From assembly GCA_009391835.1 (NCBI GenBank), contig QWJF01000012.1, positions 1 through 46,769 on the forward strand: a stretch of DNA of 46,769 nucleotides, in the 5' to 3' direction. The notes beneath the pieces were generated by a model that did no database searches, had not been told where the DNA came from, and saw only the letters and a list, made by a program, of their open reading frames with translations. Each line of letters opens with the position of its first letter. The stretch's first letter is position 1. Source of the DNA: Chloroflexota bacterium. GTDB lineage: Bacteria; Chloroflexota; Anaerolineae; Anaerolineales; UBA11579. Shown piece by piece: positions 1,693 to 46,697 of this stretch. A program made the position numbers and the translations under genes.

Positions 1693-2580
1693 GTGAGCGA
1701 ATGGATTGACTTTGGGCCGCCCAAAAGGCGGGGCGCAGGGCTGCAGGGAGTCGCACTACTTTTGTTGGGTGCGGCGATTGGCTTGATGCTTACCATTGCC
1801 AGCCAGAGCCCGCCCGGGCTGCTGGCGGTGGGGCTGCTGGTCGTGTCGCTGCTGTTAAGTTTGGCGCTGCCGCTGCTCTTTTACCGGCTGTACGCGCTGC
1901 TGCAAGCGGGCTATTCGATTGGACGGGGCGGACTGAAATTACGCTGGGGATTGAGGCAGGTAACGCTGCCGCACGGACGCATCGTGGATGTGGCCCTAGA
2001 TAGCGAACTGGAGGCCAAACCGCGCTTGCCGCGCTGGCGCTGGCCGGGAAGTGTTGTCGGGGTCGTGGAAGATCCCGAATTGGGCAAGGTGGAGTATCTA
2101 GCGGCGCGCAGTGATGGGCTGGTGCTGGTGGGCACCCAGGAGCAAGTGTTTGTGCTCTCCCCCGAAGCGCCCGCTGAATTCCTGGCAGCGTATCGCAGGG
2201 AAGCAGAGCGGGGCAGCCTGCGGGATTTGAAATCGAGTTCTGTGCAGCCGAGTTTCGTGCTGGCCGAGGCCGACGTGCGGCGTTTGCTGCTGGGCGGGCT
2301 AGGCCTGGCGGTGGGCTTGTTGATCCTGGTGGCGGTGCTGGCGCCGGGGCGAGAGAGCGTGGCGCTGGGTTTTGATGCGCTCGGAGATCCCTTGGGCAGC
2401 GTGCCGGGGGCGCAGTTGTTCCTGCTGCCGGGATTGAATTTGGCGCTGTTCGTGGGCGGCTTTCTGGTCGGGCTGATCCTGTACCGCGAGGCTGGGCTGG
2501 GCTGGTTGGCGCGCGTTGTCTGGGGAGGAAGTATCGCAGCAGGCGTGTTGTTTTTGGGCGCGATCCTGTTTATTTTGTAG
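1693..2580 (+). CDS. Membrane protein with bacterial PH-like domain
   Basis: The product has 295 residues from a GTG start that reads MSEWIDFGPP. Two hydrophobic helices near the N-terminus (about 20-40 and 43-70) are followed by a beta-rich region (about 70-170) beginning YSIGRGGLKLRWGLRQVTLP. That pattern fits the bacterial PH family, in which a strand with L-R-W-G is typical. Three more hydrophobic segments follow at about 195-220, 245-265 and 272-295. The soluble domain would lie on one side of the membrane between helix pairs. Ligand and role are unknown. It is transcribed away from the minus-strand trio, so a divergent promoter should lie in 1588-1692. The PH assignment comes from fold-like sequence features only. 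Confidence 0.65.
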   Translation: MSEWIDFGPPKRRGAGLQGVALLLLGAAIGLMLTIASQSPPGLLAVGLLVVSLLLSLALPLLFYRLYALLQAGYSIGRGGLKLRWGLRQVTLPHGRIVDVALDSELEAKPRLPRWRWPGSVVGVVEDPELGKVEYLAARSDGLVLVGTQEQVFVLSPEAPAEFLAAYRREAERGSLRDLKSSSVQPSFVLAEADVRRLLLGGLGLAVGLLILVAVLAPGRESVALGFDALGDPLGSVPGAQLFLLPGLNLALFVGGFLVGLILYREAGLGWLARVVWGGSIAAGVLFLGAILFIL

Positions 2581-2638
2581 GGAATCCCCATGAAACTAGC
2601 TTTTCTCCACCGTTGTACACAAGTTATCCACAGGGTTG

Positions 2639-3475
2639 ATGATGACGGTTGAGTTTTCAGGGGTGAGGATGTTGATTGCCCTAGTTTTGGCCGCTTTGGT
2701 GGCGGGCGCAGCCTGGCGCTTTGGGGCGTTAGATCGCAGCGGCTGGCTGGCGGCGACCTTGTTGGGAGGCTGGGTGTATGGCATGGGGGGGCTGAGCTGG
2801 GCTGTACTGCTGCTGGCCTTTTTTGGCTCGGCAAGCTTGCTCTCGAGGCTGTTCGCCCGGCGCAAGGCAGGGGTGGCGGCACAGTTTGCTAAAGGGGGAC
2901 GGCGCGATTGGGCGCAGGTGGCGGCCAATGGAGGACTGGGGGCACTATTTCTAGGCGCCGCTGCGCTGGGCTGGATAGGGAAGAGCACCGCCTGGCTGGG
3001 CTATGCGGTGGGGCTGGCCACAGTGACGGCGGATACCTGGGCTACTGAAGTGGGCGTGTTGAGCCGGAAGAGGCCGCGGTTGATCACCACGTGGCGCAAG
3101 GTGCCGCCGGGCACCTCGGGAGGGCTCTCGCTGCTCGGCACAGGGGCCACGCTGCTGGGCGGCGGATTGATTGGGCTGCTGGCGGCCTGGATGCAAACTG
3201 ATATGAAGTCGGGATCTGTGTTTGGGCTGGTGGCGCTGGGCGGGTTGCTGGGTTCGCTGGCGGATTCATGGATGGGGGCTACGGTGCAGGCGAGCTATTA
3301 TTGCCCGACCTGCGAGAAGGAAACTGAGCGCCACCCACTGCACAGCTGTGGAACACAGACGGAATGGCGGAGAGGCTGGCGCTGGCTGAGCAATGATTGG
3401 GTCAACTTTTTGAGCGCCTTGATAGCGGCGGGGCTGGTGTTGGGTTTGGCTGCCTTGTTCGGGGGTGTGGGATAA
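2639..3475 (+). CDS. DUF92 membrane protein (phytol/phytyl-phosphate kinase-like family)
   Basis: This is a polytopic membrane protein of about 278 residues. The block SGWLAATLLGGWVYGMGGLSW near the start, then ADTWATEVGVLSRKRPRLITT, VPPGTSGGLSLLGT and LADSWMGATVQASYYC are typical of DUF92. A member of that family in plants and cyanobacteria (VTE6) phosphorylates phytyl phosphate; transfer of that activity to this protein is inference only. A Cys-rich loop (CPTCEKETERHPLHSCG) near the C-terminus could bind metal. Several starts are possible: TTG 2636, ATG 2639 or 2642, and ATG 2669, which has a GGGGTGAGG sequence just upstream. The stop lies 22 bases before the next gene's start, so the two are probably co-transcribed. 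Confidence 0.8.
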   Translation: MMTVEFSGVRMLIALVLAALVAGAAWRFGALDRSGWLAATLLGGWVYGMGGLSWAVLLLAFFGSASLLSRLFARRKAGVAAQFAKGGRRDWAQVAANGGLGALFLGAAALGWIGKSTAWLGYAVGLATVTADTWATEVGVLSRKRPRLITTWRKVPPGTSGGLSLLGTGATLLGGGLIGLLAAWMQTDMKSGSVFGLVALGGLLGSLADSWMGATVQASYYCPTCEKETERHPLHSCGTQTEWRRGWRWLSNDWVNFLSALIAAGLVLGLAALFGGVG

Positions 3476-25682: not shown

Positions 25683-27056
25683 GTGGCAAGACTTGACCCA
25701 TCACCTCCGATCGGTAGCATTTACTTTTCTCAAGGTCACTCTCTCAGATGGATGAAAAGTGGGCAGGCAGATCCAGAAGTCCTTTATCGCGAAATCCTTT
25801 CCCATGCCTTGTTTTTTGAGTGCATAATTTTTTCTGATTCCCACGCAATACAGAATTGGCTTTTAATGGAATTGCTTCCGGGTGGGGCTCATTCAGCGAT
25901 TTTTCCGGGTCTAGATAAGTTGTTCCAGCTCGGAGTAATCCGCTTGGCAAGGAGAATTGAAGGCTCGTTGGAGGAAACAACTTATAGCCAAATTGCAAGA
26001 CGAGTACCTGTTTTGGTTGGAGGGGAAATGAAAGAAATGTCAGAACAGTTTCTGCGTCATTCTGAAAGACTGATGCGATTAAGTGACGGAAACGAATTTT
26101 ATTATGATCCAAGAGAAATTCAACTGGCAGAATTGATTCTTCAAAATGTCCTTGACAGCAATTCCGTTTCAACGGCATATGGAATCAAATCAGCAAAAAC
26201 CAGAATGGAAATAGAAAAAACAGTACACAAGCTTCAGAGAACGAATGGAAGATTGCTTGCTTCTGAATTATTTAGGTTTCCGGAAAAACAGTCTGGTCCA
26301 TTGTCCAACGCCAAAAATAAAGAATTGGTGCAAATCTTAGCAACGTCAGCCCATTCTTGTGCTATGCCACTTACATTTGAATTAATGCCGACCATGTCTC
26401 CGCATTCGGATGATTTTCGAGGTGCAATAGCCTTGTACCAAAACTTCGTACCTCAAATACAGAAAATCCGAACAGATCAAGATGCTTTCAAGAAAGGGGC
26501 CCTTGACCCCTCAATTCTAATTCCTTCAGATGGAAAAGATTTAACAAAAATGGGAGTCGAACCTATTCTTAGACTTCGACAAACTAAAGAGTTCAGAAGA
26601 TTACAATTAGAAAGGAAAAAGCTTCTGGATTTTTATGATAGCAAGAACGCGGGTCAACTAGTTGTTCCAGAAGAAATGGAACAAGAAACAGCCTTTGGTA
26701 AAGCATTAGCAAACTATCTGGCGAGAATCTTGGAAGAATATAATCTGAAATGGCTTCCTGCCGAAAATCCAGAATCAGCGGTATTGAAGCGACTTATCTA
26801 CGAAACAGACAATAAAATTACTGAAATAATGACCGAAATTTCGACTGCTGGCACTTTATATGCAGGAGTTGCCAGTGTTTTGACGGTACTGGCAGCGTTC
26901 GGGGTAGTGCCGTTAGCTATGATGCTTGCCGGGGGAGGCATAGTTACTGCCGGTGTGCTAAACAGAAGAAGGGTGTTGAAACACTTGCGCTCAGACAGGA
27001 AAGATTTTAACAAAGCTTCGAGCCTCGTGAATATCTCAAAAAAACATACGTCATAA
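25683..27056 (+). CDS. Orphan 457-aa protein with C-terminal membrane hairpin, AT-rich
   Basis: I do not recognise this protein. From GTG 25683 (after AGGGAGAC) it has a mixed alpha/beta N-terminal part (GSIYFSQGHSLRWMKSG, then LLPGGAHSAIFPGLDKLF), long charged helices in the middle (AKTRMEIEKTVHKLQRTNG; LRQTKEFRRLQLERKKLLDF) and two adjacent hydrophobic helices near the end (about 390-425: TLYAGVASVLTVLAAFG, AMMLAGGGIVTAGVL) before a basic tail. The base composition is clearly AT-richer than ftsK and htrA on either side, so it was probably acquired. A single membrane-tailed gene between housekeeping genes is a layout seen among defence effectors, but no motif proves this. Confidence 0.75.
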   Translation: MARLDPSPPIGSIYFSQGHSLRWMKSGQADPEVLYREILSHALFFECIIFSDSHAIQNWLLMELLPGGAHSAIFPGLDKLFQLGVIRLARRIEGSLEETTYSQIARRVPVLVGGEMKEMSEQFLRHSERLMRLSDGNEFYYDPREIQLAELILQNVLDSNSVSTAYGIKSAKTRMEIEKTVHKLQRTNGRLLASELFRFPEKQSGPLSNAKNKELVQILATSAHSCAMPLTFELMPTMSPHSDDFRGAIALYQNFVPQIQKIRTDQDAFKKGALDPSILIPSDGKDLTKMGVEPILRLRQTKEFRRLQLERKKLLDFYDSKNAGQLVVPEEMEQETAFGKALANYLARILEEYNLKWLPAENPESAVLKRLIYETDNKITEIMTEISTAGTLYAGVASVLTVLAAFGVVPLAMMLAGGGIVTAGVLNRRRVLKHLRSDRKDFNKASSLVNISKKHTS

Positions 27057-31050: not shown

Positions 31051-32598
31051 ATGGGTAGGTTGTTAAAACCTAATCAACAACAGAAACTATTTCTTGTTCT
31101 CATGGGAATTGCAGGCACCATATTGGTGTTGCTGTCTACTAGCCCTTATGGAGCTGGCCTGACCTCCGACTCTGTACATTACATTTCTGCTGCAAGGAAC
31201 ATAATGTCTGGCGCGGGAAACCTCGATTACGCCGGATCACTTTTTGTAAGATGGCCGCCACTGTATCCTGTTGCTCTAGCGACAATTGGCAGTGCTTTTT
31301 GCATCGATCCACTTGAAGCCGCAAATTATCTGAACGCCGTTGTTTTTGGTCTCATCGTGTTTTTTGGGGGACTGTTGCTATTTGAATGGTTTCCTAATCC
31401 TCGTGCTTTTGCTTTTATAGGGACTTCAGCAATACTGTTTTCACCTCCCTTATTGGATGCTTCAATCATGGTATGGACGGAACCCCTTTTTATTCTATGG
31501 GTGCTTTTTAGCTTTTTATTTGCTGAGAAATATATAAACAAGGGAGAGTTAACGTCGTTAGTAATTTTGTCGTTAATGGTGGCTTTGGCTTTGCTAACCA
31601 GATTTGTTGGAGTGGCCCTATTTTTCTGGGGATTGATAATAATCCTTTCTAATCAGCGCGAAAATTTGAAACGCAAAAAGTGGCACGCTTTGTACTTTGC
31701 GGTAATAAGTTGGCTTCCAATTGCTTTTGTGTTGATCAACAATTACTTTGCCTCCAATAGCTTTGTCGGCAAACGCGGGGCCTCAAACTATTCCTTTATA
31801 CAAAACATTTCTTTTACGATTGACACCCTGAATTCCTGGCTGGTTCCTCCCCAAGTTGTAAATCACCCTGTAGCTATTTTGTTACTGCCCTCAATGATTA
31901 TTTTTCTTATTGTCTTCGGGCGGAAAATTAATTGGCGAGATATTGTCTCTCAAGCGCCACAAATCAATCTGGCAGTGTTATTTTCCACCCTCTATACGAT
32001 CTTACTGATCAGCTCATCCACCATCTTTGCCTATGACAAGATCAATAATCGGCTGCTCTCCCCCATATACGTTCCCATGATAATCATTGCGTTCTTCCCC
32101 TATCAGGTGCTCAAAGAATCAATGATGCGCAGAGACTCAAAAAAATGGATACGCACTTTTCTGATGACCATCCTTCTGCTTTGGTTTTTCTACCCTTTTG
32201 TTGGAACCGTTTACACGGCCTTATATTTCTATCAAAACGGGAGAGGATACGCGAGCCAAAAATGGCTGCAAAGCGAAACTATTCAATATCTTGATCATGC
32301 ATTGGCGACAGAAACCGCCTGCGCCATTTATTCGAATGCACCAGACGTGATCTATCTTCGTTCTCACAGTACAGCCCAATGGGTGCCGGCTAAAAGCCAA
32401 TACGATTTGGCGAGAAATATTGAGATTGCAAACAACCTGAGAGGGTCTCGGCCCTTGGAAGACATTTCTTGCCTGGTGTTATTTAATGAAATCGACCGCG
32501 ACTTTTTATTTACAGGGGAGGAGTTAGAAAATATTGTTGAATTTGAAACAATCGCTCAATTTTCTGATGGAGCCATTTATTCCATGAGCAAGAAATAA
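31051..32598 (+). CDS. Polytopic glycosyltransferase-like membrane protein, AT-rich
   Basis: The product has 515 residues with about ten hydrophobic helices. The loop after helix 1 has LTSDSVHYISAARNIM, where the Asp is in the position of the catalytic acid of GT39/GT-C proteins, and RWPPLYPVALATIG follows. The C-terminal part (from about 405) is soluble. It probably adds a sugar from a polyprenyl-phosphate donor outside the membrane. It is distinct from the GT-C protein at 11-13 kb. The base composition is AT-richer than its neighbours and no polyprenyl-phosphate synthase is adjacent, which suggests separate acquisition. Start ATG 31051 (MGRLLKPNQQQ). Confidence 0.72.
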   Translation: MGRLLKPNQQQKLFLVLMGIAGTILVLLSTSPYGAGLTSDSVHYISAARNIMSGAGNLDYAGSLFVRWPPLYPVALATIGSAFCIDPLEAANYLNAVVFGLIVFFGGLLLFEWFPNPRAFAFIGTSAILFSPPLLDASIMVWTEPLFILWVLFSFLFAEKYINKGELTSLVILSLMVALALLTRFVGVALFFWGLIIILSNQRENLKRKKWHALYFAVISWLPIAFVLINNYFASNSFVGKRGASNYSFIQNISFTIDTLNSWLVPPQVVNHPVAILLLPSMIIFLIVFGRKINWRDIVSQAPQINLAVLFSTLYTILLISSSTIFAYDKINNRLLSPIYVPMIIIAFFPYQVLKESMMRRDSKKWIRTFLMTILLLWFFYPFVGTVYTALYFYQNGRGYASQKWLQSETIQYLDHALATETACAIYSNAPDVIYLRSHSTAQWVPAKSQYDLARNIEIANNLRGSRPLEDISCLVLFNEIDRDFLFTGEELENIVEFETIAQFSDGAIYSMSKK

Positions 32599-38832: not shown

Positions 38833-38967
38833 GGAAGGAATTGTACTAAAGCGTGGGCAGGGAATGCTGATTTTTGATTGTTGATGGCTGATTGGGAAGA
38901 GATTTAGCGCGGTAAATCAACTATGCAACCAATAGGTTCCCTCCTGCCATTCTTATCGGACTTGTGC

Positions 38968-38986
38968 GGATTGCAGGTTGCAATCC
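38968..38986 (+). repeat. Perfect inverted repeat (operator-like) before the acidic protein/PLD nuclease operon
   Basis: GGATTGCA (38968-38975) and TGCAATCC (38979-38986) are perfectly complementary with a GGT spacer. It ends three bases before the -35-like box, a normal place for an operator. No matching sequence was found upstream of the other islands. Confidence 0.6.
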
Positions 38987-38989
38987 TTG

Positions 38990-39018
38990 TTGATCGCCTG
39001 TTAAAAACAAAGTATATT
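38990..39018 (+). promoter_or_regulatory. Candidate promoter of the acidic protein/PLD nuclease operon
   Basis: TTGATC (38990-38995) and TATATT (39013-39018) are 17 bases apart and lie 15 bases before the ATG at 39033. The leader would be only about 8 bases. The upstream inverted repeat makes regulated expression likely. Confidence 0.6.
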
Positions 39019-39032
39019 CAGTAAATTACAAG

Positions 39033-39380
39033 ATGATTTGGGAGGGTGAAAAATTGGACTACGAAGAAACAAACAAGGCTGGTTTTCGTGAATTTGTTGA
39101 TAAGGAAGCCGACCTAACTGCCGGTTTTGCTAATCTTGATGAATTAGTTGAATTTGCCTTTGGTGAACTGGAATCTGCAGTTGCTGAGTTTGAGCGAGCT
39201 CGTGGCAAGAAATATGAAACACTTGAAGAATACCTTGATGATGAATACTTTCAAGGCTTTGTGTCGGATGAGTTTGATAATGTGCAAATCTATGCATCGG
39301 ATGATGAAATAGCTGAATGGGCTTTTGGAAGCAGGGAAGAAGCCGAAGATAAGTACAAGGAGGGGAAAAGTGGAAGTTAA
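39033..39380 (+). CDS. Very acidic 115-aa protein, coupled partner of PLD nuclease
   Basis: I do not recognise the family. By direct count it has 23 Glu and 11 Asp (34 of 115, about 30 percent) against 8 Lys and 4 Arg, for a net charge near -22. Aromatic residues (Phe, Tyr, Trp) are frequent. Segments such as FANLDELVEFAFGELESAV look helical. Highly acidic small proteins can mimic DNA and inhibit DNA-binding enzymes, and antitoxins are often encoded just before their toxin; both are inferences here. The TAA overlaps the nuclease GTG start by 11 bases. The AT-rich base composition matches the next gene. Confidence 0.7.
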   Translation: MIWEGEKLDYEETNKAGFREFVDKEADLTAGFANLDELVEFAFGELESAVAEFERARGKKYETLEEYLDDEYFQGFVSDEFDNVQIYASDDEIAEWAFGSREEAEDKYKEGKSGS

Positions 39381-40212
39381 ATTTGTTGACAATCAAAGCG
39401 AAAAACTTTCCGACCTTTTGATTGCGAATCTTGGGAAATCAGTCGATACTAGGATCGCAGTAGCCTTTGCCTCGCAAAGCGGGCTTAGAATGCTGGCCGA
39501 TGAAATCGATAACGCTCTGGCGGCCATTGCAAGTATTGAAATCTTAGTCGGACTTGATTACTCCACCACCGAAGCAAAAGCTCTTTGGGCTATGCAAAAA
39601 TGGTCCAAAGATTTTGAAAACTTCAACTTTTATTGTTTCCCAAGAAGGGGAAACGGCATATATCATCCTAAGATGTATTTGTTGCTTGCAGACAACGGTG
39701 CCACAATCGTTGTGGGTTCTTCGAACCTAACTGCTGCTGGCTTATCTCAAAATGCTGAAGCAAATATTCTTATCAAAGAAGGTTTGGACTCGGAAGTTGT
39801 TAGTGATGCACTAGCAAGCTATGTGAGATTAAAGTTCAGTAATCGATTTGCCCCAACGGACGAATATCTATCGATGTACGAGGAAGCGTCTCGTCAAAGG
39901 GTAAAGGCCGAAAAGCAGACAGACGAAAGCGCAAAACTATCCGCGTTAGAAAAGTCCATGCGGGAATTGGAATCAACAATACCCAGGCCAAGGGCTTCTA
40001 AAAAAGACCTTGTTGGATGGCTTGAAATGGTCTACGATTCTCTGCCTGACGGCAATTTTTCCACTACTCAAATGTATGAGTACGAAGAAGAGTTTAGCGC
40101 ACACTATCCTGAGAATAATAATGTAAGAGCTAAGATTAGGCAGCAATTACAATATCTCCGGGATATAGATTTGGTGGAGCATATATCAACAAATAATTGG
40201 CGAAAGCTTTAG
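39370..40212 (+). CDS. PLD-family nuclease fused to DpnI-C-like winged helix
   Basis: The product has 280 residues from GTG 39370, six bases after AAGGAGG. An ATG at 39325 is in frame but lies deep in the previous gene. The N-terminal domain (about 1-150) is of the phospholipase D type with a single motif: His99-x-Lys101 (YHPKMYLLLAD) and Gly-Ser-Ser-Asn 116-119. One motif implies a dimer with a shared active site, as in BfiI and Nuc. A helical linker (about 165-212) leads to residues about 213-280 (GWLEMVYDSLPDGNF; NNNVRAKIRQQLQYLRD), which match the DpnI/Dam-replacing-protein C-terminal winged helix that binds N6-methyladenine DNA. I infer a modification-dependent restriction nuclease. Confidence 0.85.
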   Translation: MEVKFVDNQSEKLSDLLIANLGKSVDTRIAVAFASQSGLRMLADEIDNALAAIASIEILVGLDYSTTEAKALWAMQKWSKDFENFNFYCFPRRGNGIYHPKMYLLLADNGATIVVGSSNLTAAGLSQNAEANILIKEGLDSEVVSDALASYVRLKFSNRFAPTDEYLSMYEEASRQRVKAEKQTDESAKLSALEKSMRELESTIPRPRASKKDLVGWLEMVYDSLPDGNFSTTQMYEYEEEFSAHYPENNNVRAKIRQQLQYLRDIDLVEHISTNNWRKL

Positions 40213-40269
40213 ATTACCTCCCCCTCCGCTATTCCCCCTCAGCCCCTTCCCAATCCCGCCCTCACCCGC

Positions 40270-40363
40270 TATAATATAGAAAATACGTTCTAGTATCCCT
40301 CGCCGTGGGACATCTGCCCGGCGTGAAGCAGCATTCGCGTGCCGCTTCCGTCGGCTTTTTTGT
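40270..40363 (+). ncRNA. Candidate ~80-nt small RNA or attenuated leader
   Basis: A perfect TATAAT (40270-40275) is followed from about 40282 by a short transcript region with a 5' hairpin (TCCC 40296-40299 / GGGA 40307-40310). A long terminal hairpin (40318-40354) with CTTTTTTG directly behind it ends the region. No ORF of note lies in it. It matches no RNA family I know. No good -35 box is visible. It may be an sRNA, or a transcription attenuator ahead of the lipoprotein gene at 40540. The rest of the gene-free stretch 40213-40539 is C-rich and holds nothing else I can name apart from the next promoter. Confidence 0.45.
40318..40362 (+). terminator. Long-stem intrinsic terminator
   Basis: CCGGCG (40318-40323) pairs with CGTCGG (40349-40354) with one G-U pair. 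GAAGC (40325-40329) pairs with GCTTC (40344-40348), and GCA (40331-40333) with TGC (40340-40342), around a TTCGCG loop. CTTTTTTG follows. It can also end the nuclease transcript upstream. Confidence 0.75.
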
Positions 40364-40525
40364 TTCCCCCTCCAAGGAACCGCGATGCCTTTCTCTCCCT
40401 CCCTTGCGCCAACCAACCATCGTCTGTCCACAAGCAGCCCAACCACACCCGCTGCTACTGGGGTGAATCTGGATTTATCTGGATGCAGCCCAAATTCCTC
40501 ACCACTAGCCCGCGGCCCGGCGTAC

Positions 40526-40531
40526 TATAAT
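40526..40531 (+). promoter_or_regulatory. -10 box giving a nearly leaderless lipoprotein mRNA
   Basis: A perfect TATAAT (40526-40531) ends eight bases before the ATG at 40540. With usual spacing, transcription would begin at or within two bases of the start codon. No Shine-Dalgarno sequence could then be present. No clear -35 box is seen. Confidence 0.5.
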
Positions 40532-40539
40532 TTGAGCCT

Positions 40540-45187: not shown

Positions 45188-45859
45188 ATGCAAATGAGCG
45201 AGCTAGCCGAACGAGCCCAGGCGGTGCATGAGCGCCTGCTTGACTTTTACGGGTATCCGACATGGCGCAATCCCCTAGAGCCACTAGATGAACTGGTTTC
45301 CACCATCCTTTCACAGAATACGAACGATATAAATCGGGACGTGGCCTTTAATGCGTTGAAGGCGGCTTTTCCTAGCTGGGAGGCGATGCGGGATGCGGAC
45401 GAGGAAGCGGTGGTGGAGGCGATCCGACCGGCGGGGTTGGCCAACCAGAAGGGGCCGCGTATCCAGGCCGTGCTGCGCGATATCACGGCGCAACGGGGTG
45501 ATCTATCGTTGGAATTTTTGAAGGATATGGATGCGGAAGCGGCCAGCGCATGGCTGCAAGGCTTCAATGGCGTGGGGCCGAAGACGGCGGCGATTGTGTT
45601 GCAATTTTCACTGGACAAGCCGGCCTTCGCGGTGGACACGCATGTTTACCGGGTGACGGGGCGGATTGGCTTGCGGCCCCCCAAAATGACGGCGGAAAAA
45701 GCGCACACCTTTCTTGAGGGTCTGCTGCCGCCGGAGACCTATTATGCGGCCCATCTGAATATCATCCGGCTGGGGCGGGAGATCTGCCAGGCGCGCACAC
45801 CGAACTGCGCGGAGTGCCCGCTGCAGGATTTGTGTGATTATTACTCGGCGAATTACTAA
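45188..45859 (+). CDS. nth: Endonuclease III-like DNA glycosylase/AP lyase
   Basis: The product has 223 residues. It removes oxidised pyrimidines and cuts abasic sites in base-excision repair. The helix-hairpin-helix LQGFNGVGPKTAAIVL carries the catalytic Lys132, and Asp150 in AVDTHVYRV is the second active-site residue. The iron-sulphur loop has Cys200, 207, 210 and 216 with the 6-2-5 spacing of the family. The start may be ATG 45188 or 45194. The family also includes MutY-like branches, but the catalytic Lys supports a bifunctional Nth-type enzyme. Confidence 0.92.
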   Translation: MQMSELAERAQAVHERLLDFYGYPTWRNPLEPLDELVSTILSQNTNDINRDVAFNALKAAFPSWEAMRDADEEAVVEAIRPAGLANQKGPRIQAVLRDITAQRGDLSLEFLKDMDAEAASAWLQGFNGVGPKTAAIVLQFSLDKPAFAVDTHVYRVTGRIGLRPPKMTAEKAHTFLEGLLPPETYYAAHLNIIRLGREICQARTPNCAECPLQDLCDYYSANY

Positions 45860-45880: not shown

Positions 45881-45941
45881 ATAAGCCTTCTTAATGTAAA
45901 ATATGTAATGCCAATAAATCACGTCAGCGGGGGCATTGAAC

Positions 45942-46697
45942 GTGGCAGTTAACACCCCTACGCTTTTCGCATTGAGAATGTCTGAGGAACCGGAGTTAGC
46001 CGAAGGGACGACTTCGCCCCTAACAATTGCTTGTGCGCCAATAGATGCAATAACCGAGACTAGGGATTTCGTTGTTAAATTTAACACAAAGCTTGCCTAT
46101 TCAAAAAATGGTTTTGCCTTTGGCATTGCATCCGAGATAATTTGTGGGCATTTGGCGGAATTTTTTCAGTTGCCCAATCCGGAATTTGCGTTTATAGAAA
46201 TTAGCAATGCATTCAAGGCTTCTATAGCAGCCAACACAAGAATTCCCGCCCACATCCTTGAGATAATAAATCAAAATGTGCATGCAAACAACTTTGGCAG
46301 TCAGATAATTGAACTTGATACAACGTCACCATTATCCATTCAAATCTACAATCCCGCTCAACTAGAAGCTGCTTCTAATGTTTTTGCTTTTGATGCCTTA
46401 ATCTTCAATGCCGACCGAACACTACAGGCACCTAACATGTGGGCGATTGACGATGAATTTATCATGTATGATCATGAAAAGGCCTTCAACTTTTTGTTAT
46501 CAAATCAGGACCAGATTGAGGAACGATTCGAGTTTCGAACCCCCACGGGGACATCTTTTATGCATGAGCATATCTTCTATCCGGTTCTACGCAAAAGAGA
46601 CATTCCTTTTAATTTTTTTATAGGTGGAGTCAGACATTTAGTGCAACGAATGAAGGATAATTCGTTCGTATGCAAAACACAAAATACATGCGCCTAA
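45942..46697 (+). CDS. HipA-like kinase-fold protein (HipA_2 type), 3' end probably truncated
   Basis: The product has 251 residues from GTG 45942, eight bases after GGGGG; TTG 45936 is an alternative. Residues FVVKFNTKLAYS match the ATP-binding Lys strand, EIICGHLAEFFQLPNPEFAFIEI the following helix and strand, and DALIFNADRTLQAPNM then DEFIMYDHEKAF the catalytic and metal-binding Asp/Asn/Asp-His blocks of the HipA_2 group. HipA kinases phosphorylate targets such as GltX. No HipB-like antitoxin is adjacent. The AT-rich gene ends in a tail (CKTQNTCA) that overlaps the start of an IS30-type transposase in another frame, so its natural C-terminus may be lost. Confidence 0.7.
   Translation: MAVNTPTLFALRMSEEPELAEGTTSPLTIACAPIDAITETRDFVVKFNTKLAYSKNGFAFGIASEIICGHLAEFFQLPNPEFAFIEISNAFKASIAANTRIPAHILEIINQNVHANNFGSQIIELDTTSPLSIQIYNPAQLEAASNVFAFDALIFNADRTLQAPNMWAIDDEFIMYDHEKAFNFLLSNQDQIEERFEFRTPTGTSFMHEHIFYPVLRKRDIPFNFFIGGVRHLVQRMKDNSFVCKTQNTCA

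Follow-up and report, generated by a model that had tools for sequence, protein, structure and literature searches.

The 280-aa protein encoded by ORF B, a gene in a low-GC stretch of a Chloroflexota contig, very probably belongs to the described class of PLD-winged helix (PLD-wH) fusions, candidate enzymes for cutting foreign DNA that contains methylated adenine. This assignment is made because both domains are matched at the sequence level, the predicted fold is confident, the catalytic and reader residues are invariant among relatives, comparable fusions have been published from the same phylum, and no Dam gene was detected in the source genome. The fuller reading, in which ORF B is an m6A-guided, modification-dependent PLD-wH restriction endonuclease, its host lacks Dam-type GATC methylation, and the overlapping acidic gene upstream (ORF A) is a feature of this locus only, is considered likely.

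Organization of the locus

Both genes are located on the forward strand of the window (the whole 46,769-nt stretch of DNA that was analysed), with the following features:

38833-40539, strand not applicable: low-GC stretch holding only ORFs A and B, from composition and gene spacing
39033-39380, + strand: ORF A, orphan acidic protein of 115 aa (ATG start) or 108 aa (TTG start at 39054)
39357-39363, + strand: Shine-Dalgarno-like AAGGAGG within ORF A, read directly from the sequence
39370-40212, + strand: ORF B, PLD and DpnI_C protein, GTG start, 280 aa
ORF B regions: PLD nuclease domain (residues ~1-155), helical linker (~164-201) and DpnI_C winged helix (221-279)
39664-39726, + strand: PLD active-site segment, H99-P-K101 to G116-S-S-N119, from translation and alignment
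40030-40206, + strand: DpnI_C-type winged helix, ORF B residues 221-279, from Pfam and alignments

The GTG start of ORF B, which has AAGGAGG 6 nt upstream, overlaps the stop end of ORF A by 11 nt. For ORF A, the TTG at 39054, which has GGAGG ahead of it, is probably the start in preference to the ATG at 39033.

The GC content of 38833-40539 is 0.45 compared with ~0.6 in the flanks, where a uvrD-like gene is found on one side and lipoprotein and holB genes on the other. The starts of the uvrD-like gene and holB are separated by 2235 nt here versus 616-1312 nt in ten other members of the family, and at the three loci where the lipoprotein gene was recognisable its start lies 64-80 nt from uvrD, versus 1.7 kb here. 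Because the uvrD, lipoprotein and holB genes are closer together in the family genomes, the arrangement is most simply explained by gain of ORFs A and B at the present site, which would be in keeping with a mobile defence gene; no direct repeats stood out at the ends of the cassette.

Low-GC stretches (~0.41) among genes of 0.6 GC also occur elsewhere in the window, at 25683-27056, which contains a 457-aa ORF without a Pfam match, and at 31051-32598, which contains a 515-aa ORF whose sole Pfam hit, to PMT_2, is weak. A HipA-like kinase gene (45936-46694; PF20613, 46 bits), over which GC falls toward the window end, adjoins an endonuclease III-like gene (45188-45859).

Domains, conserved residues and fold of ORF B

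The preliminary description of this DNA had proposed a PLD nuclease joined to a C-terminal DpnI_C-like winged helix, and Pfam bears this out, with PLDc_2 at residues 43-138 (33 bits, E 7e-8, above the cut-off) and DpnI_C at residues 221-279 (66 bits, E 3.3e-18, cut-off 23). The active-site residues that it named, H99, K101 and GSSN at 116-119, are exact in the translation when numbered from the GTG. In a sequence search of the PDB, the C-terminus matched the DpnI winged helix (E 1.6e-6) and the N-terminus matched SauUSI (E 2.5e-5) and, weakly, BfiI (E 0.027); a phmmer alignment pairs the active-site segment with BfiI residues 102-143.

Across eight aligned sequences, H99, K101, S117, S118, N119 and E130 do not vary, and neither do K255 and R257 of the winged helix. 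The latter two correspond to K229 and R231 of DpnI in a pairwise alignment, where numbering of the crystallised DpnI chain was taken to run 3 ahead of the native protein, judging from chain lengths of 257 versus 254. An alanine variant of DpnI K229/R231 binds methylated DNA poorly (PMC4117772). An AlphaFold2 model of ORF B built with an eight-row alignment has a mean pLDDT of 90.4 and a pTM of 0.87, and the Foldseek and profile comparison against PLD nucleases and DpnI that had been suggested earlier agrees with the domain assignment: SauUSI ranks first (structure 7clg, TM 0.52 by query length), followed by NucT, the NgoAVII R subunit and BfiI, with DpnI at rank 31.

A reading in which ORF B is instead a DNA-binding toxin or regulator, its winged helix reading methylated DNA while nuclease activity is lost or incidental, is very unlikely. 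It draws on the observation that binding and cutting could not be told apart as the cause of PLD-wH toxicity (Helbrecht et al., 2024; PMC11037411), but the HxK, SSN and E residues of the nuclease domain are the same in all eight aligned sequences.

Comparison with known systems

The combination of domains was earlier thought unfamiliar, but PLD-wH fusions were already published in 2024, when 27 were predicted and put forward as candidates for type IV restriction enzymes that depend on m6A (Helbrecht et al., 2024; PMC11037411). ORF B has the features of this class, namely an HxK PLD domain, a C-terminal DpnI_C domain and equivalents of K229/R231, and the suggestion that it is modification-dependent (type IV-like) is thus supported at the level of sequence. 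The two fusions that were tested, Aba4572I and CbaI, are both from Chloroflexota (PMC11037411) and, compared by domain order, resemble ORF B in having an N-terminal PLD domain and a C-terminal DpnI-like winged helix. The likeness extends to the shared phylum and to a class mostly without a neighbouring cognate methylase, although an acidic overlapping upstream gene such as that found here has not been described for them (PMC11037411). The toxicity of CbaI to Escherichia coli was greater in Dam+ than in Dam- cells, whereas Aba4572I behaved oddly in being toxic in Dam- cells too (PMC11037411). The behaviour of Aba4572I weighs against the preferred reading of ORF B, as does the fact that no PLD-wH protein has so far been purified or seen to cleave DNA in vitro (PMC11037411).

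Other enzymes share one or other half of this architecture. DpnI (PF06044 and PF17726) has a C-terminal winged helix like that of ORF B (residues 215-280), in which the K229/R231 equivalents are retained, but its catalytic domain is of the PD-(D/E)XK type and is itself methyl-reading, where ORF B has a metal-independent PLD domain. SauUSI, a type IV enzyme directed at 5mC/5hmC and the best structural match, has an N-terminal single-HxK PLD nuclease and is modification-dependent, as is proposed for ORF B; in contrast to ORF B, it contains an SF2 ATPase and an SRA reader for 5-methylcytosine. BfiI and the NgoAVII R subunit likewise combine a PLD restriction nuclease with a C-terminal DNA-reading domain, but their B3 reader recognizes unmodified sequences and they have cognate methylases.

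Host methylases and self-cutting

That no methyltransferase gene is near ORF B was correct for the tested families within the window's contig. Elsewhere, however, the source genome encodes three N6/N4 methylases. One of these is a CcrM-like adenine methylase with a RAMA domain (L034:1420-2508, contig C1 of the same genome), which scores 527 bits against the CcrM model and so falls below the equivalog cut-off of 830; its gene is found just after a YchF/OBG-like GTPase gene. The earlier argument that self-methylation is unlikely since no methylase lies nearby is therefore too simple. In the assembly (1.68 Mb, 83% complete), no D12 methylase scored over the cut-off and there were no matches to PF05869, PF02384 or PF07669, although at this level of completeness a Dam gene could be missed.

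The window contains 270 GATC sites where 170 would be expected, such that Dam methylation would be self-harmful. GANTC is under-represented (93 versus 170 expected by base composition). In methylated GANTC the two modified adenines are separated by a base, and CcrM-like (GANTC-type) methylation should therefore not produce anything resembling the fully methylated ApT read by the DpnI winged helix.

The methylases elsewhere in the genome also bear on the alternative that ORF B belongs to the conventional type II enzymes, cutting unmethylated DNA while one of these methylases protects the host. PLD-type type II enzymes exist, and at locus L004 an ORF B-related PLD protein with a different C-terminus, lacking DpnI_C (1495-2421), is directly followed by a predicted DNA methylase (2428-3027). 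The L004 genes look like a PLD-type restriction-modification pair, indicating that the PLD family of ORF B also works in ordinary restriction-modification. ORF B, however, has a winged helix of the DpnI_C family with conserved reader residues, its neighbours are the uvrD-like gene and the lipoprotein/holB pair rather than a cognate methylase, none of the tested methylase families is matched on the contig, and its relatives are mostly solo genes, which makes the type II reading quite improbable.

Relatives of ORF B

Relatives were detected by alignment-based scans of genome contigs, a scan with the single ORF B protein having matched nothing. Ten further intact, full-length relatives were found, mostly in Chloroflexota (L020, L021, L022, L023, L024, L025, L026, L040, L041 and L042, of which L021, L022 and L025 are the same loci as L002, L039 and L003, respectively); the seven included in the alignment are ~38-41% identical to ORF B. 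A disrupted PLD-wH copy with a frame break (L043/L053; genome G513, contig C292) was also seen, while the copy in G550, of the same genus, is intact (L041). Scans of viral contigs with ORF A and with the ORF B alignment gave no matches.

The neighbourhoods of the relatives vary and include a PD-(D/E)XK fragment (L020), small unrelated genes (L023, L025 and L040) and metabolic genes (L041); some relatives are flanked by metabolic genes without obvious defence islands, which counts against the reading as a restriction enzyme. Small acidic or overlapping genes near L005, L023, L025 and L040 were considered as ORF A counterparts and rejected, as they do not resemble ORF A.

ORF A and its proposed coupling to ORF B

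The preliminary description rightly noted that ORF B starts within the end of a gene for a very acidic protein: ORF A is 29.6% D/E, with a net charge of -22. Its length by itself is weak coding evidence: when the low-GC island was shuffled 2000 times, 184 of the shuffled sequences contained an open frame of 128 codons or more. ORF A is nevertheless probably a real coding gene, because against the codon usage of ORF B it scores +0.36 per codon when read in frame, while all five alternative frames score below zero. No homologues were found in 400 genomes of the phylum, 400 of the order and 24 of the family, or in phage, plasmid or viral collections, and ORF A matched no family, including antitoxin, immunity and DNA-mimic families. 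Near-threshold matches in G400, G442, G562 and G576 (E 0.01-0.05) were treated as chance, that in G400 overlapping a gene with a LOG-type-looking product; phrog_12475 matched weakly (E 0.014). A single-sequence AlphaFold model (pLDDT 52) is too poor for the fold to be judged.

The two genes had been presented as a two-gene module. A search of the genome neighbourhoods found no ORF A homologue adjoining any of the ten intact PLD-wH genes, and with ORF A itself lacking homologues, the coupling is on present data a property of a single locus; a two-gene system of ORFs A and B is not established. The preliminary description had itself named homologues lacking the acidic gene as a refuting outcome, and as far as the coupling is concerned this outcome was observed. 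Among its possible forms is a toxin-antitoxin-like or restriction-inhibitor pair, in which ORF A, as a DNA mimic, would bind the ORF B protein and keep its nuclease inactive until displaced by competition from incoming methylated DNA. The position of ORF A upstream with its 11-nt overlap, its charge, and the finding that solo PLD-wH proteins were toxic and not expressible in E. coli (PMC11037411) are consistent with such a pair. It is unlikely, however, given that the partner is not conserved among the ten relatives and that ORF A belongs to no DNA-mimic or antitoxin family that could be matched. The more specific proposal that ORF A is an inhibitor dedicated to the PLD nuclease and acting by DNA mimicry, an in trans counterpart of the acidic linker proposed to act in cis in BfiI, is about as unlikely or slightly more so.

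Proposed mechanism and significance

In the preferred reading of ORF B as an m6A-guided PLD-wH endonuclease, the winged helix would bind DNA that is fully adenine-methylated in an ApT (GATC-like) context and bring the metal-independent PLD nuclease to the methylated site. By analogy with SauUSI, in which the HxK motifs of two protomers are combined, and with BfiI, which has one active site at the dimer interface, two ORF B subunits would be expected to form a single composite HxK active site. Incoming m6A-marked DNA would then be cut near the mark via a covalent histidine intermediate, in a role that is presumably phage defence. Self-cutting may be avoided by the absence of Dam-type GATC methylation in the host, a target being predicted for one of the three N6/N4 methylases. 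ORF A would be a co-transcribed, locus-specific acidic protein.

Apart from its acidic neighbour, the locus is an ordinary addition to the known PLD-wH class. Among the endonuclease families with winged-helix readers in the 2024 study, that class alone yielded no purified member (PMC11037411), and ORF B and its relatives provide more natural versions to try, one of which is encoded beside an acidic protein that might restrain its nuclease activity. If ORF A were indeed an inhibitor, the pair would constitute a two-component m6A-triggered nuclease, which might explain the toxicity of solo PLD-wH proteins.
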